Source: Dyella sp. BiH032 (GTDB lineage: Bacteria; Pseudomonadota; Gammaproteobacteria; Xanthomonadales; Rhodanobacteraceae). Taken from it: a stretch of 64,000 nucleotides of DNA. This document shows, one piece after another, positions 4,252 to 21,493 of the stretch (the first letter of the stretch is position 1; every line of letters begins with the position of its first letter). The translations under genes and the position numbers were made by a program. The stretch covers positions 3,968,001 to 4,032,000 of the forward strand of contig NZ_CP134867.1 in NCBI RefSeq assembly GCF_031954525.1. The letters run 5' to 3'. Under the pieces are notes generated by a model that had not been told where the DNA came from, searched no databases, and was given only the letters and a program-made list of their open reading frames with translations.

Positions 4252-4579
4252 AACCGCAAATGGCCTCGGGATAAGGCGTGTAGACAACCGTGCAATTTGG
4301 TGGCCCCGGAGGTTCATCACCACCCGTGTTAATCCCGCCGCTGGTATCCGGGCACTCTTGAGCCGTGAACGTCTGATACATGGTCTGGTAACCCCAAGAC
4401 CATAAATTGCCCTGGCAGTTATAGTCCCGCTCTCCAACCCGCGTGGTTAACGACGCGTCGCTGTAATAGCTGTTCTTAATGTTGACCTTGCCGGGATTTA
4501 CCGCCCATGCGTAACCGCTCACCAGCATGCATCCCATCGCTGCGAGAACGACACGCTTCATCCTAAAGCCTGAACGCAT
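4250..4579 (-). CDS. Small exported protein, DUF6289-like
   Basis: A 109-residue protein with a clear signal peptide: basic start MRSGFRMKRVV, hydrophobic core LAAMGCMLVSGYAWA with an AWA cleavage site, then a mature part of about 80 residues. The mature part contains YYSDASLTTRVGERDYNCQG, which resembles the small secreted DUF6289 proteins common in xanthomonads (tyrosine/serine-rich start, Val-Gly, one Cys pair); I recognise this by eye only. Four mature Cys residues may form disulfides, and a Pro/Gly-rich linker (GGDEPPGPPN) precedes the C-terminus. The start at 4579 is preferred because GGAAAGGAGCG lies 6 nt upstream. It is separated from the receptor gene upstream by two terminators, so it should have its own promoter. 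Function unknown. Confidence 0.72.
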   Translation of the reverse strand: MRSGFRMKRVVLAAMGCMLVSGYAWAVNPGKVNIKNSYYSDASLTTRVGERDYNCQGNLWSWGYQTMYQTFTAQECPDTSGGINTGGDEPPGPPNCTVVYTPYPEAICG

Positions 4580-4635
4580 ATTTCGCTCCTTTCCCTGCGT
4601 AGCCATGACAGCGCCATGGCGAAGAACCCCCTTTC

Positions 4636-11802: not shown

Positions 11803-14041
<2,239 letters not shown>

Positions 14042-17960: not shown

Positions 17961-19181
17961 TCAGCCCTTCACGCACAACACCTGGCGCAACGTGTGCACC
18001 ACCTCCACCAGGTCGGTCTGCGCGGCCATGACCGCGTCGATCGACTTGTAGGCGGCTGGCGATTCGTCGAGCACGCCCGCGTCCTTGCGGCATTCCACGT
18101 GCGCGGTGGCCTCGCGGTGCTGGGCCAGCGTGATCTGCTGCTTGGCCATGCCGCGGCTCATGACGCGGCCGGCGCCGTGGCTGCAGCTGTGGAAGCTGTC
18201 CGCATTCCCTTTGCCGCGCACGATGTAGCTCTTCGTGCCCATGCTGCCGGGGATGATGCCGAGCTCGCCCTCGCGGGCGCTCACGGCCCCTTTGCGGGTG
18301 ACCAGCAGCGATTCGCCGAAGTGGGTCTCGCGCTGCACGTAGTTGTGGTGGCAGTTCACCGCCACCTTGTCGAGCTGGAACTTCGGCAGGCGGTGGCGCA
18401 TCTCGTTGAGCACCCGCGCCATCATCGCCTCGCGGTTATGGCGTGCGTAGTCCTGCGCCCAGGACACGGCCTCCACGTAATCGTCGAACAGCGGCTCGCC
18501 TTCCATGAAAAACGCGAGGTCCTTGTCCGGCAAGTGGAAACCCAGCACGCGGTGGGCCAGCTGTTCGCGCGCCCGTTCGATGAAGTAGGTACCGATCAGG
18601 TTGCCGGTGCCGCGCGAGCCCGAGTGCAGCATCACCCATACGCGGTCCTCCTCGTCCAGGCAGATCTCGATGAAGTGGTTGCCGCCGCCGAGCGTGCCGA
18701 GCTGCTGTTCGAACTTGTCCGTGCGGATCTTGCGGTGCCTGGCCTTGATCCCCTCCAGCCGCTGCGCCAGCCCGGACTGCACCAGACGCGTGCCGATGCC
18801 GTCCGGCAGGCGGCGGTGTTCGCCGCCGGCGCCGTTGCCCACCGGCACGCCACGCTCGATGCTCGAACGCAGCAGCGCCAGGCTGTCCGGCAGGTCGGCC
18901 GCGCGCAGCGTGGTCCGCACCGCGGCCATGCCGCAGCCGATGTCCACGCCGACCGCAGCCGGGATGATCGCGCCGCGCGTGGGCACCACCGACCCGACCG
19001 TGGCGCCCTTGCCCAGGTGCACGTCCGGCATGACCGCGACCCACGGGCCGACGAACGGCAGCGCCGCGATATTCTGCAGCTGCGCGTGGGCTTGCGCCTC
19101 CAGCGGCACGCCGTCCACCCAACCCTTGATCGGCTTGGCGCCCTCGGCATGCAACAGTTGATATGACGTTTCGGTACTCAT
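17961..19181 (-). CDS. rtcB: RNA-splicing ligase RtcB
   Basis: Mn/GTP-dependent RNA ligase, 406 residues, that joins 2',3'-cyclic phosphate (or 3'-phosphate) and 5'-OH RNA ends, as left by tRNA-cleaving toxins. Motifs are complete: PDVHLGKGATVG (52-63), GVDIGCGM with metal-binding D80 and C83, GGGNHFIEI, HSGSRGTG and the guanylylated histidine in CSHGAGRVMSR near residue 320. AAGGAGA lies about 8 nt before the ATG at 19181; a longer in-frame start lacks this. It follows a slipin gene by 56 nt. No rtcA cyclase and no rtcR regulator gene is present in the window, so regulation may differ from the E. coli rtcBA model. Confidence 0.95.
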   Translation of the reverse strand: MSTETSYQLLHAEGAKPIKGWVDGVPLEAQAHAQLQNIAALPFVGPWVAVMPDVHLGKGATVGSVVPTRGAIIPAAVGVDIGCGMAAVRTTLRAADLPDSLALLRSSIERGVPVGNGAGGEHRRLPDGIGTRLVQSGLAQRLEGIKARHRKIRTDKFEQQLGTLGGGNHFIEICLDEEDRVWVMLHSGSRGTGNLIGTYFIERAREQLAHRVLGFHLPDKDLAFFMEGEPLFDDYVEAVSWAQDYARHNREAMMARVLNEMRHRLPKFQLDKVAVNCHHNYVQRETHFGESLLVTRKGAVSAREGELGIIPGSMGTKSYIVRGKGNADSFHSCSHGAGRVMSRGMAKQQITLAQHREATAHVECRKDAGVLDESPAAYKSIDAVMAAQTDLVEVVHTLRQVLCVKG

Positions 19182-19237
19182 GATGTTCTTCTCCTTGGGG
19201 CCGGTCGCGGCAATTCCATCTGCCGCGACGACGGCTT

Positions 19238-20362
19238 TCATTCCTTGATGGTCACCAGCTGCTTCAGCACGCCATCCAGGCCGCCGAACACCGTCAGCTT
19301 GTCGATCTTCTCGGTGACCTTCTCCAACGCTTCCAGTTCCTTCAGGCGCATCAACACCGGGCTCTCCTCGATCAAGCGCGCGGTGTTGAGCAGGGAACGC
19401 GTGGCGTTCGCCTCCTCGCGGCGGCGGATCACATTGGCCTGAGCCGCCTTCTCCGCCTGCACCACGCTGTTGAGGATGTCCTTCATTTCGCCCGGCAGGA
19501 TCACATCCTTGACACCCACGCCTAGCACTTCCACGCCCAATTCGGTCACACGGCCGCGCACGTAAGCAAAGATGTCCGCATCCAGCGAGGCCTTGTCGCC
19601 CAGCAGCTCGTCCAGCGTCTTGGCGGAGACCGCCTTGCGCAGGCCGTACTGCAGTTCGCGATAGACGTAATCGCCGTACTTGGCCACCTTCGTGCGCGCG
19701 GCGACCGGGTCGGTCACGCGCAGGCTGGCGGCAAGATTCACGCGCAGGCTCACCTTGTCGCGAGTCAGCAGTTCCTGGCCCGAGACTTCCAACGACTGCA
19801 CGCGCAGGTCGATCACTTCGGCGGCGACGTTCTTGCGGAAGTTCCAGAACGCATACGCACCCGGCGCCAGCGTGCGCACCAGCTTGCCATCCACGAACAG
19901 CAGGCCCGCCGATTCGGACGGCACGTCCAGCGCCACCGCCACCTTGGTCAGTACGCCGAGTTGGCGTAGACGGTTGGCGACATCAGGCTGCACCTCCAGC
20001 GTGCCGGCAAGGGATGCCAGGCGCAGTTCGACCGGTACCAGCTCCTTCCAGTACAGCTTGCGGGTACCCGGCGCGAGCACGTCTTCCAGCTTGCCGTTCT
20101 TCAGCACCAGGCCGACCTGGTCCACGCCGACGTCCGCGAGCAGGAAGTGCTCGCCCAGCTTCGCGTCCATCCGCGCCATCAGCACGTCGGCGTCGGTGCC
20201 GGCGTACTCGGCGCGGGCAGCATTGTGCACGGCCACCGCGATGCGGCCGAACGGGTCGAACCAGCGGTAGACGCCCGCGGCGAGCACGCGCTGCAGTCGA
20301 CGGTTGCGATACAGCAAACCGCGCTCGCCGTCGCCGATCACGATTTGCTTGATCCAGAACAT
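19238..20362 (-). CDS. Slipin / SPFH-domain membrane protein
   Basis: A 374-residue member of the SPFH (stomatin/prohibitin/flotillin) superfamily, slipin branch. The N-terminal part (FWIKQIVIGDGERGLLYRNR) is only mildly hydrophobic. The SPFH core includes VIDLRVQSLEVSGQELLTRD, KVSLRVNLAASLRVTDPVAA and LGVEVLGVGVKDVILPGEMK. A helical region with EKAAQANVIRRREEANATRS follows, the usual stomatin oligomerisation helix. AAGGAG is 8 nt before the ATG at 20362. Slipin genes are repeatedly found beside rtcB in RNA-repair operons, and here the two are consecutive with tRNA-like genes upstream. Probable role (inference): membrane scaffold for the repair system. Confidence 0.88.
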   Translation of the reverse strand: MFWIKQIVIGDGERGLLYRNRRLQRVLAAGVYRWFDPFGRIAVAVHNAARAEYAGTDADVLMARMDAKLGEHFLLADVGVDQVGLVLKNGKLEDVLAPGTRKLYWKELVPVELRLASLAGTLEVQPDVANRLRQLGVLTKVAVALDVPSESAGLLFVDGKLVRTLAPGAYAFWNFRKNVAAEVIDLRVQSLEVSGQELLTRDKVSLRVNLAASLRVTDPVAARTKVAKYGDYVYRELQYGLRKAVSAKTLDELLGDKASLDADIFAYVRGRVTELGVEVLGVGVKDVILPGEMKDILNSVVQAEKAAQANVIRRREEANATRSLLNTARLIEESPVLMRLKELEALEKVTEKIDKLTVFGGLDGVLKQLVTIKE

Positions 20363-20405
20363 GGGAATACTCCTTATCCCTGACATAAGCCGGCCTGAGT
20401 TAATC

Positions 20406-20420
20406 GCTTTGCGCGGGCCA
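20406..20420 (-). promoter_or_regulatory. Possible sigma-54 (-24/-12) promoter of slipin-rtcB
   Basis: On the minus strand TGGCCCG-N4-AAGC reads GG-N10-GC, the invariant spacing of sigma-54 promoters; the -24 half matches TGGCACG in 6 of 7 positions while the -12 half keeps only GC. It would start transcription near 20394, about 32 nt before the slipin start. RtcR-controlled rtc operons use sigma-54, but no rtcR gene is visible, so this remains tentative. Confidence 0.35.
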
Positions 20421-20730
20421 GCCGGTAACGCGCAAATAATCGTTTTGATAATCCAAGGGCGCGGCACGCCCTCCCTTTCGGGATAATCGTCCGCAAATCG
20501 CTCCGCGGCCGAGCGGAAACTAAGGCGGAAGCGCCCCTGGCGTCGGCGACGCGGGACCGTCGCGCCTCCACGGGGGAGACGGACGCTGTCCGCGGCGCGG
20601 CGAACCGCCCGCTTGCCGGCGACCGTCCGCCCCATCTCGGGACGGCGATCCGGCGTGGCTCCCGCTGCGGCGAAGCCGGACCGCCTTCCCTGGCGATACC
20701 GGCAGCGCCGCGCGGGGCGCTTCCTGTGGA

Positions 20731-20746
20731 GGGAGCTTTCGCTCCC
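20731..20746 (-). other. GNRA-tetraloop hairpin after the tRNA-like pair
   Basis: On the minus strand GGGAGC-GAAA-GCTCCC forms a perfect 6-bp stem with a GAAA tetraloop, 4 nt after the Met-type tRNA-like gene. It lacks a T-tract, so it looks like an RNA structure or processing barrier rather than a terminator. Confidence 0.55.
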
Positions 20747-20749
20747 GGG

Positions 20750-20823
20750 GTTTTGGAGCGGGAGTCGAACCCGCGACAACCGACTTATGAGGTCAGTGCT
20801 CTACCTGTCTGAGCTATCCAAAC
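20750..20823 (-). tRNA. tRNA-Met(CAU)-like gene, no CCA, weak acceptor stem
   Basis: A full cloverleaf can be folded: D arm GCTC/GAGC with GG in the loop, anticodon stem CTGAC/GTCGG with loop CTCATAA (anticodon CAU, as in elongator Met), T arm GCGGG-TTCGACT-CCCGC. The acceptor stem GTTTGGA/TCCAAAA has a G1-A72 mismatch and is followed by C and CCC rather than CCA. The three normal tRNAs in this window all encode CCA and have perfect acceptor stems, so this is either a specialised tRNA or a tRNA mimic. It sits 1 nt after the Ala-like gene and upstream of slipin-rtcB. Confidence 0.7.
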
Positions 20824-20824
20824 A

Positions 20825-20898
20825 AGCGACGTGCCGGATTCGAACCGGCGCCCGATGGCATGCGAAGCCATTGCTCTACCCGACTGAGCTAACGTCAT
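20825..20898 (-). tRNA. tRNA-Ala(CGC)-like gene, no CCA, weak acceptor stem
   Basis: Cloverleaf on the minus strand: U8-A9, D arm GCTC/GAGC with loop AGTCGGGTA, anticodon stem ATGGC/GCCAT with loop TTCGCAT (anticodon CGC), 5-nt variable loop, T arm GCCGG-TTCGAAT-CCGGC. The acceptor ATGACGT/ACGTCGC has an A1-C72 mismatch and a wobble at 2-71, and no CCA follows. The G3-U70 identity pair of normal tRNA-Ala is absent (G3-C70), so charging with alanine is doubtful. One nucleotide separates it from the Met-type element. Confidence 0.7.
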
Positions 20899-20952
20899 TC
20901 CCGAAACACCGCCGTGCAGGCCCGGGCATACGCTGTCGGCAACGCCGCGCGC

Positions 20953-21052
20953 ACCGGCCGGGCGCTTGAACCCGAGCCGCTGGAGCCTGTCGTATCGATG
21001 CTTCGCATGGCCGGCTGTCGCCAGCCGGTCATCCGTGTGGGCGCAAGCGCCC
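20953..21052 (-). other. Structured non-coding segment, possible third degenerate tRNA-like element
   Basis: On the minus strand this stretch holds two strong hairpins, GGGCGC-TT-GCGCCC (21039-21052) and CCGGCTG-GCGA-CAGCCGG (21011-21028, GNRA loop), then GGGTTCAAGCGCCC reminiscent of a T arm. The 77 nt from 21029 to 20953 begin ACCGG and end CCGGT, which could pair as an acceptor. No convincing anticodon arm can be drawn, so this is only a candidate. Confidence 0.3.
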
Positions 21053-21240
21053 GCATTCGTTGAAACCTCCCGGTCACTCGCCGCCCGTGCCGAAGCATCA
21101 AGGCACAGCGCATCCATGCGCCTCTCGCGGTCGCCCCTGCCTCGGCCCGGCGGCCGGATGCTTCAGGGCGGAAGTCGCCTTCCGTTGGTCGGTCGTTTCA
21201 TCACCTTTCGGTGCATGGACCCGTTCCTTGCGAACGCCGG

Positions 21241-21277
21241 AAACAAAACGCCCCCGGGTGAAGAACCCGAGGGCGTT
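21241..21277 (-). terminator. Rho-independent terminator of the small gene at 21324-21437
   Basis: On the minus strand a 13-position stem with one mismatch (AACGCCCTCGGGT pairing ACCCGGGGGCGTT) closes a 5-nt loop and continues into TTTTGTTT. Confidence 0.88.
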
Positions 21278-21323
21278 CGCGTTGCCTCGGGAGATCGGGG
21301 TGACCGATCTCCGCAGGCGAGGA

Positions 21324-21437
21324 TCAGTCGATGGTGTGGAAGCGGCCGCCATTCGCCGGCCGCATGCCGTGCCCGCACGGCAGCACGTCGCGGCATTCGC
21401 GCGAGGGCAGCGTGGCGTGGACGACGAATAACGACAT
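21324..21437 (-). CDS. Candidate 37-residue protein
   Basis: A short open frame starting MSLFVVHATLPSRECRD and ending GRFHTID. It is supported by context rather than similarity: a promoter with exact 17-nt spacing lies 57-85 nt upstream of the start, and a strong terminator follows 47 nt after the stop, so a transcript of about 250 nt is expected. The peptide has C-X6-C-X-H, which might bind metal, and no signal sequence. The ribosome site is weak (CTGGAATT). A second hairpin (GAGATCGG/CCGATCTC, 21292-21312) lies just after the stop. It could instead be a small RNA. I do not recognise a family. Confidence 0.45.
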   Translation of the reverse strand: MSLFVVHATLPSRECRDVLPCGHGMRPANGGRFHTID

Positions 21438-21493
21438 GGCTAATTCCAGACCTTTTCCAAAAATGAAGTTCGCCGGACTTGGCGAGGTCGCGA

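Follow-up and report, generated by a model that had tools for sequence, protein, structure and literature searches.

The stretch of DNA analysed here (64,000 nt of Dyella sp. BiH032, contig NZ_CP134867.1, positions 3,968,001 to 4,032,000; hereafter the window) carries on its minus strand a gene encoding a slipin (PF01145), followed by rtcB, which encodes the RNA ligase RtcB (PF01139), and, upstream of both, two tRNA-like elements in tandem, T1 and T2. A preliminary description of the locus, made from the sequence alone, had reported tandem cloverleaves without an encoded CCA ahead of the two genes and on the same strand, an arrangement on which ARAGORN, Rfam and Pfam agree. The pair is therefore real, but that description missed the larger element to which it almost certainly belongs, a structured RNA of ca. 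640 nt. Likewise, the pair had been placed immediately upstream of slipin and rtcB: strand and order hold, but ca. 385 nt, mostly the conserved RNA itself, separate the pair from the slipin start, and the feature extends in the other direction to ca. position 21166. The features of the locus are the following (window coordinates).

20527..21166, minus strand: whole structured RNA, from helix P1 to the end of P11 (inferred span)
21090..21166, minus strand: 5' domain helix P1 (CTGAAGCATC / GATGCTTCGG) with inner hairpin P1a, from the Lysobacterales alignment
21007..21032, minus strand: hairpin P2 (ATGACCGGCTG / CAGCCGGCCAT), 11 bp, strong covariation
20903..21004, minus strand: helix P3 (GAAGCATC / GGTGTTTC), enclosing the core
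20917..20989, minus strand: core P4-P5-P6, with near-invariant CCGGTGCGC...GCGTATGCC; the section that model R2 detects outside the order
20824..20899, minus strand: T1, called tRNA-Ala(cgc); acceptor of 5-6 bp, loop of 0-7 nt across species
20748..20823, minus strand: T2, called tRNA-Met(cat); acceptor of 4-5 bp, hypervariable loop
20732..20745, minus strand: hairpin P10, stem GGAGC / GCTCC with a GAAA (GNRA-type) loop, conserved in place and covarying
20527..20724, minus strand: 3' domain containing P12-P14, closed by a long-range 11-bp helix, P11 (GGAAGCGCCCC / GGGGCGCTTCC)
19238..20362, minus strand: slipin / SPFH (Band 7) protein, 374 aa
17961..19181, minus strand: rtcB, RNA ligase RtcB, 406 aa

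The conserved stretch lies between ca. 760 and ca. 130 nt upstream of the slipin gene and contains many covarying helices. In the window it corresponds to 640 nt (21166 to 20527, minus strand) with ends inferred from helices P1 to P11, and in relatives it spans 620 to 686 nt (median 653). An alignment of 78 Lysobacterales loci, the window included, supports a structure of 151 base pairs of which 92.0% are formed, compared with 79.0% in shuffles and 36.4-45.9% in slid controls. Since the structure was derived from the very alignment on which it was counted, the 92% is favoured and the stronger test is provided by the two-sided changes and the shuffles: 116 of the 151 pairs change on both sides, in 1438 cells versus 427 in the shuffles, and on none of the five measures is the alignment equalled by a shuffle. 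GU cells outnumber AC cells (997 versus 302, or 761 versus 298 when the P6 helices are omitted), an excess that fits transcription of the slipin strand; for P9 and P10 alone the balance is reversed, with small counts. When the window and 11 related loci were searched with Rfam 15 at gathering thresholds, the tRNA model was the only one to match at the RNA. These comparisons indicate, with little room for doubt, a large structured non-coding RNA with two embedded tRNA-like domains. No earlier description of it was found in the open-access literature searched, a search that did not extend to the RNA-repair survey of Burroughs and Aravind (2016).

Some structural details were noted aside. The 3' strand of P1 (GATGCTTCGG, 21090-21166) could pair with the 5' strand of P3 (CGAAGCATC, 20997-21004), which would provide a possible alternative fold, and in locus L136 (ca. 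4430-4590) hairpin P5 bears an insertion of ca. 150 nt with long inverted ends, resembling a small mobile element. A pairing between the core and T2 was dropped, the positions being mostly invariant, and a sigma54 reading of the core itself did not fit the spacing (by eye).

In the window, the two elements were called by ARAGORN on the minus strand as tRNA-Met(cat) (20748-20823) and tRNA-Ala(cgc) (20824-20899). Covariance scoring, suggested in the preliminary description, gave 54.2 and 57.7 bits with the Rfam tRNA model, the lowest values among the five tRNAs of the window; yet these rank only 42nd and 47th of the 51 in the genome, which is not abnormal, so that the score alone does not separate the pair from the genome's tRNAs. 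Other properties do set it apart in this species. Both elements have a non-standard 1-72 pair, in agreement with the mismatch first reported, and neither is followed by an encoded CCA, which is present in 49 of the 49 other tRNA genes of the genome (one base of slack allowed). The contrast drawn earlier with the ordinary, CCA-encoding tRNAs thus holds for the window but not for the relatives, in which T1 often has a CCA (see below). The same genome also holds a second Ala(cgc) gene and three further Met(cat) genes. Sub-threshold Rfam matches in the window, to Plastid-ycf2 (30.4 of 65.7 bits, other strand), Tymo_tRNA-like (22.1 of 40 bits) and YrlA (21.6 of 69 bits), were read as tRNA resemblance and set aside.

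Comparison of related genomes, also suggested in the preliminary description, shows that the pair does travel with the slipin-rtcB locus. When 147 family genomes were searched at the DNA level, 116 had matches, for the most part to ordinary tRNAs; in all 18 loci with long matches (the window's included) a slipin gene lies downstream. An orthologous slipin occurs in 22 of the 147 genomes, with the tRNA-like region upstream in 22 out of 22: ARAGORN sees at least one element in 20 of these and the alignment shows the region in all 22, T1 being reduced in L052. A scan of named genomes yielded 80 loci in Dyella, Rhodanobacter, Frateuria, Lysobacter, Luteimonas, Pseudoxanthomonas, Xanthomonas and some metagenome-assembled genomes, a set that overlaps the previous one. 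A model of the pair (R1) matches upstream of slipin in 77 of these 80 and, in the three misses (L068, L123 and L128), the slipin gene lies at most 361 nt from a contig end. Occurrence at this frequency in both sets is more than chance. Of 233 family genomes, 26 contain a single copy of the exact core motif, which the reversed control did not yield at all; slipin was present in all 20 of the core-motif loci that were fetched, 16 of which are genomes already counted and 4 new. In a sample of the class, the exact motif occurs in two of 369 genomes, namely the window's and one of the same order. A core match in a viral contig (L171), without slipin, was considered a chance match, and a search for slipin in phages gave no match at E 1e-10. 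L137 has a second, weaker R1 match on the other strand.

Outside the order, orthologues of the slipin share ca. 35-53% identity with that of the window. The R1 model matched in 369 of 369 genomes of the class, with ordinary tandem tRNAs scoring up to ca. 115 bits, and was therefore applied near slipin genes only. For the core model (R2), the background in control loci reached 18.7 bits and scores below ca. 20 bits (L205, L224, L241 and L243) were discounted. An R1 pair (34-124 bits) was found upstream of slipin in 20 of 21 phylum loci, the one miss having 85 nt of upstream sequence; these 20 include four loci of the window's order (L231, L235, L236 and L237), and L230 and L206 come from the same genome. 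The R2 core was not found at the expected place in L227, L232 and L233. Among 14 orthologues of the class (L194-L207), R1 matched within 1 kb upstream in 11, sometimes over a reduced length; L197 has the core only, L207 one T arm, and in L201 the match lies only at ca. 1.3 kb upstream, while in L202 (genome G390) slipin sits inside an array of many ordinary tRNA genes with rtcB upstream of the array. A Burkholderia record combines a pair of 63.5 bits with a core of 26.2 bits, and in a Subdoligranulum (Clostridia) record a core of 24.2 bits (E 0.0019) precedes two T-arm hairpins, slipin and an RtcB relative. Nine control loci of other SPFH genes gave no pair match above 9 bits. The slipin locus of E. 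coli, present in 1624 of 5426 E. coli genomes, has a leader (L219) that, like that of Citrobacter (L220), was not reached by R1 (9.2 bits) or R2; a sigma54-like site, a hairpin and one T-arm-like hairpin are visible by eye in L219 and L220, which are possibly, at best, reduced forms of the RNA. The gene following slipin in both encodes RlaP (PF10127), an RNA-repair-associated protein of the polymerase-beta family.

The association with rtcB is looser. In the named loci rtcB follows slipin in 74 of 77; in L098 the contig ends there, and none was seen in the examined stretch of L117 and L124. Within 1.5 kb on each side, 13 of 23 phylum loci have rtcB after slipin, one (L232) has it before slipin and nine have it on neither side; in the 14 class loci, it was downstream in four, upstream in three (L196, L202 and L207) and not seen in seven. 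RtcB was not found in G048 (99% complete), G032 (100%) and the less complete G141, all of which keep the RNA and slipin. Because two of these genomes are near complete, the tie of the RNA is stronger to slipin than to rtcB, which is optional, and the assignment of the pair to an rtcB repair locus stands as regards its travelling with slipin and rtcB but not as regards the gene to which it is most closely bound. In five loci (L095, L108, L127, L129 and L138), an extra open reading frame (ORF) of ca. 250-290 aa containing MRxDMxKVIVERPRxGG lies between slipin and rtcB; three copies (L127, L138 and L129) had no Pfam match, and PADLOC gave no match for three proteins and none for the L127 copy.

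Of the phylum loci, 22 extend far enough upstream to be judged, and 5 of these have a TGGCACG-type site, which from its consensus we take to be a -24/-12-type, RtcR-type promoter site; by eye, such a site is also present in L219-L221. A divergent RtcR gene was detected in all six TGGCACG loci given to Pfam (L221, L223, L226, L227, L228 and L233), the check having covered only loci with such a site; RtcR is annotated in L220 and not listed beside L219, for which the gene table is incomplete. The four family genomes that have RtcR carry a separate RtcB within ca. 4 kb of it. The link between RtcR and such loci, mentioned in the preliminary description, is seen in some relatives but not at the window, where RtcB is present at the locus and RtcR is absent from the genome. 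In Salmonella, expression of the RtcR-controlled operon responds to damaged tRNAs (available part of PMC7790460) and, in Anabaena, slipin and rtcB rise together upon loss of the repressor TrcR (available part of PMC10272220).

The position of the RNA could also be that of a cis-acting 5' leader, in which the tRNA mimics would serve as the binding site of a protein that acts on tRNA (RtcB, slipin, a nuclease or a modification enzyme) and so set transcription or translation of slipin and rtcB. A tRNA-like operator controls some synthetase genes. The RNA is on the same strand and just upstream of slipin wherever it is found near slipin, the slipin gene starts a median of 132 nt after P11 ends, with few T runs in the interval, and in RtcR-type loci a -24/-12-like site lies slightly before the core. 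However, the RNA stays where rtcB has been lost from the genome and has rtcB on one side and slipin on the other in L196, L207 and L232, and it therefore cannot be a leader of rtcB only; in addition, its size and fixed core are beyond those of usual leaders and some loci already have an RtcR gene. This is the main rival to the interpretation preferred below, and we regard it as rather unlikely.

The model's alignment of the 77 named loci was used to follow T1 and T2 across relatives. All 77 have T loops of 7 nt, with entropy near zero at most positions, and the D loops, variable in length, keep their GG. On 21 pairs, the stems of T1 and T2 are formed in 97.0% of cells, with two-sided change at 22 of 38 base pairs; none of 500 shuffles scored as high. 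The loops in the anticodon position are far less regular: that of T1 has 7 nt in 16 loci, 4 nt in 38 and 0-6 nt in the rest, and that of T2 has 7 nt in 70, with U33 in 52 of those 70 and 29 different central triplets; 52 distinct loops were counted for T1 and 55 for T2. The anticodons of the 18 long-match loci change from species to species, some with abnormal loop lengths, as opposed to the Lys(ttt) and Arg(ccg) genes found by the same search, whose anticodon is constant in six of six loci each. Conserved acceptor helices are only 4-6 bp long (T1, 5-6 bp; T2, 4-5 bp), a longer T1 acceptor being visible by eye in L049 and L051.

Decoding by T1 or T2 is very unlikely, because the elements keep the T and D arms of a tRNA while lacking a constant anticodon and a full 7-bp acceptor stem with a standard 1-72 pair. 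This agrees with the first view of the elements as tRNA-like rather than housekeeping tRNAs. It could still be argued that they are real but unusual or decaying tRNA genes located here by chance, since ARAGORN and Rfam call them as tRNAs with scores that are not abnormal in the genome, and T1 often retains CCA in relatives; the species-dependent anticodons, the presence of other Ala(cgc) and Met(cat) genes in the same genome and the maintenance of the stems by compensatory change make this extremely unlikely.

The same loops bear on the proposal, made in the preliminary description, that the domains act as bait for anticodon nucleases, taken here to mean that they lure such enzymes away from real tRNAs and are resealed by RtcB. 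The adjacency of tandem tRNA mimics to a repair ligase and the 7-nt, highly diverse loop of T2 would suit such a role, and the Salmonella rtc operon has a Y RNA that was proposed to act by competitive inhibition (available part of PMC7790460). Against it, the T1 loop is irregular and 7 nt long in few loci, some genomes have the RNA and slipin without RtcB, and cleavage fragments of YrlA were not seen in the part of PMC7790460 available. The bait proposal has thus fared badly and is considered improbable.

At no more than two bases from its place in a tRNA, a CCA follows T1 in 50 of 76 loci and T2 in 23 of 76 (one of the 77 loci was unscored), against a background of 7%; in distant loci, it follows 19 of 64 T arms, compared with 36 of 36 for control T arms of ordinary tRNAs. 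Most of the T1 cases have a 6-bp acceptor and ACCA directly before T2, a configuration that is missing from the window's species. These data bear on a further possibility, namely that RNase P or RNase Z cuts at the tRNA-like domains, freeing the slipin-rtcB message or maturing the RNA. RNase P and RNase Z recognise the T arm, which is the most conserved part of the elements. The frequent CCA after T1 raised the odds of this processing and, to a lesser degree, those of decaying tRNAs, both from lower starting values; given the short acceptor stems, the missing CCA in the window and the covarying 5' and 3' domains that processing would leave unexplained, it is nonetheless improbable that the elements are processing marks.

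The preferred reading, to which we give a probability slightly under one half (ca. 0.48), is that the RNA is the partner of this slipin in RNA-damage stress. The RNA would be made together with the operon upon RNA damage and would form a particle with slipin, a member of a ring- or cage-forming SPFH family; by analogy with OLE RNA and OapA, or Y RNA and Ro, such a particle may offer the tRNA-like elbows to nucleases or to proteins that bind tRNA, close to the repair ligase, RtcB being a frequent but optional client. As a complete mechanism, this particle is held somewhat more tentatively than the partnership itself. The slipin is predicted to comprise three tandem beta modules, an SPFH domain and long helices. 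Hydropathy shows no transmembrane segment in the window's protein, and in 6 of 54 slipins an internal window exceeds 1.6, none of them near the N terminus.

Several observations weigh against a slipin partnership. In Pfam, the slipin matches Band 7 only and no RNA-binding domain, and its structural model is of middling confidence (predicted local distance difference test, 78.8; predicted template modelling score, 0.52). For the SPFH gene of the Pseudomonas rtc locus, which may not be an ortholog, the available part of PMC13086221 reports no detectable effect of deletion on biofilm, and does not include it among the mutants listed with phenotypes. At least five T within 20 nt after P11 are found in just 18 of 78 loci, so that mostly no T-rich terminator precedes slipin, and the strict same-strand position fits a cis-acting leader as well. 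T1 usually keeps CCA in relatives, which slightly lowered both the partnership and the leader; if its 3' end were freed, enzymes that bind CCA or the acceptor may still recognise T1. Neither the window's genome nor 18 of the 22 RNA-bearing family genomes have RtcR. Finally, R1 cannot tell pairs outside the order from ordinary tandem tRNAs (up to ca. 115 bits), so that there the argument is carried by the core and by aberrant ARAGORN calls, and only 14 of the 20 phylum loci with a pair also have a core above 20 bits beside it.

Among known systems, YrlA (RF02553), a non-coding RNA of rsr-yrlBA-rtcBA operons, also has a tRNA-like domain and belongs to an RtcR-controlled repair operon (available part of PMC7790460). 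Unlike YrlA, the window RNA scores 21.6 bits against the 69-bit cut-off of that family, contains two tRNA-like domains (three in one genome) inside a much larger RNA and has slipin as its neighbour gene, and Ro60/TROVE (PF05731) was not found in the window's genome. As with OLE RNA and OapA, and also GOLLD and ROOL, a large structured RNA is encoded beside one protein gene, and the commonest downstream neighbour of OLE, oapA, encodes its partner (available part of PMC12265935). The several hundred nucleotides and many covarying helices of the window RNA are likewise reminiscent of these large ornate RNAs, but it matches no Rfam family except tRNA and has tRNA-like domains, and OapA is a membrane protein whereas hydropathy predicts no transmembrane segment in the window's slipin. 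With RtcR/RtcB/RlaP repair operons the likeness lies in the genes, since relatives have rtcB, divergent RtcR and RlaP together with this slipin; in Pseudomonas aeruginosa, an SPFH gene has already been placed in the rtc locus (available part of PMC13086221), in a paper whose main text, as far as available, has no word beginning with tRNA.

The modelled slipin fold resembles both stomatin and vault-protein folds, the SPFH shoulder and beta modules being alike, yet stomatin, prohibitin and HflK entries rank above vault. A bolder version of the partnership would be a ribonucleoprotein like the vault particle (major vault protein and vault RNA), in which a multi-module SPFH protein with an architecture like that of major vault protein and no membrane anchor assembles with a dedicated large RNA that carries the tandem tRNA mimics. 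Produced when tRNAs are damaged, it would collect the damaged molecules or the enzymes that act on them, and RtcB or RlaP would be its clients; we hold this version to be distinctly unlikely.

If correct, the slipin partnership would add a large RNA family, with loci in Lysobacterales, Burkholderia, other genomes of the phylum and one Clostridia record, to bacterial RNA-damage biology; the slipins of rtc loci would gain a likely partner, and the role of tRNA-mimic RNAs in repair operons becomes testable. As ARAGORN and Rfam read the domains of this RNA as tRNAs, tRNA catalogues may contain false entries.

Two further features surround the locus. Upstream of the RNA, at ca. 21230-21480 on the minus strand, a 37-aa ORF (MSLFVVHATLPSRECRDVLPCG...) has relatives in several Dyella loci (best in L062) and is followed by a terminator-like hairpin; 66 of 77 loci have a terminator-like motif between 717 and 1215 nt ahead of slipin. 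The 5' arm of that hairpin (GCGAACGC) can pair by eye with a downstream GCGTTCGC and may form an attenuator. Queuosine sits in tRNA anticodons, and a few kb beyond rtcB (11803-14041) ORFs resembling, by eye, the queuosine-synthesis genes tgt and queA are found, probably by chance.

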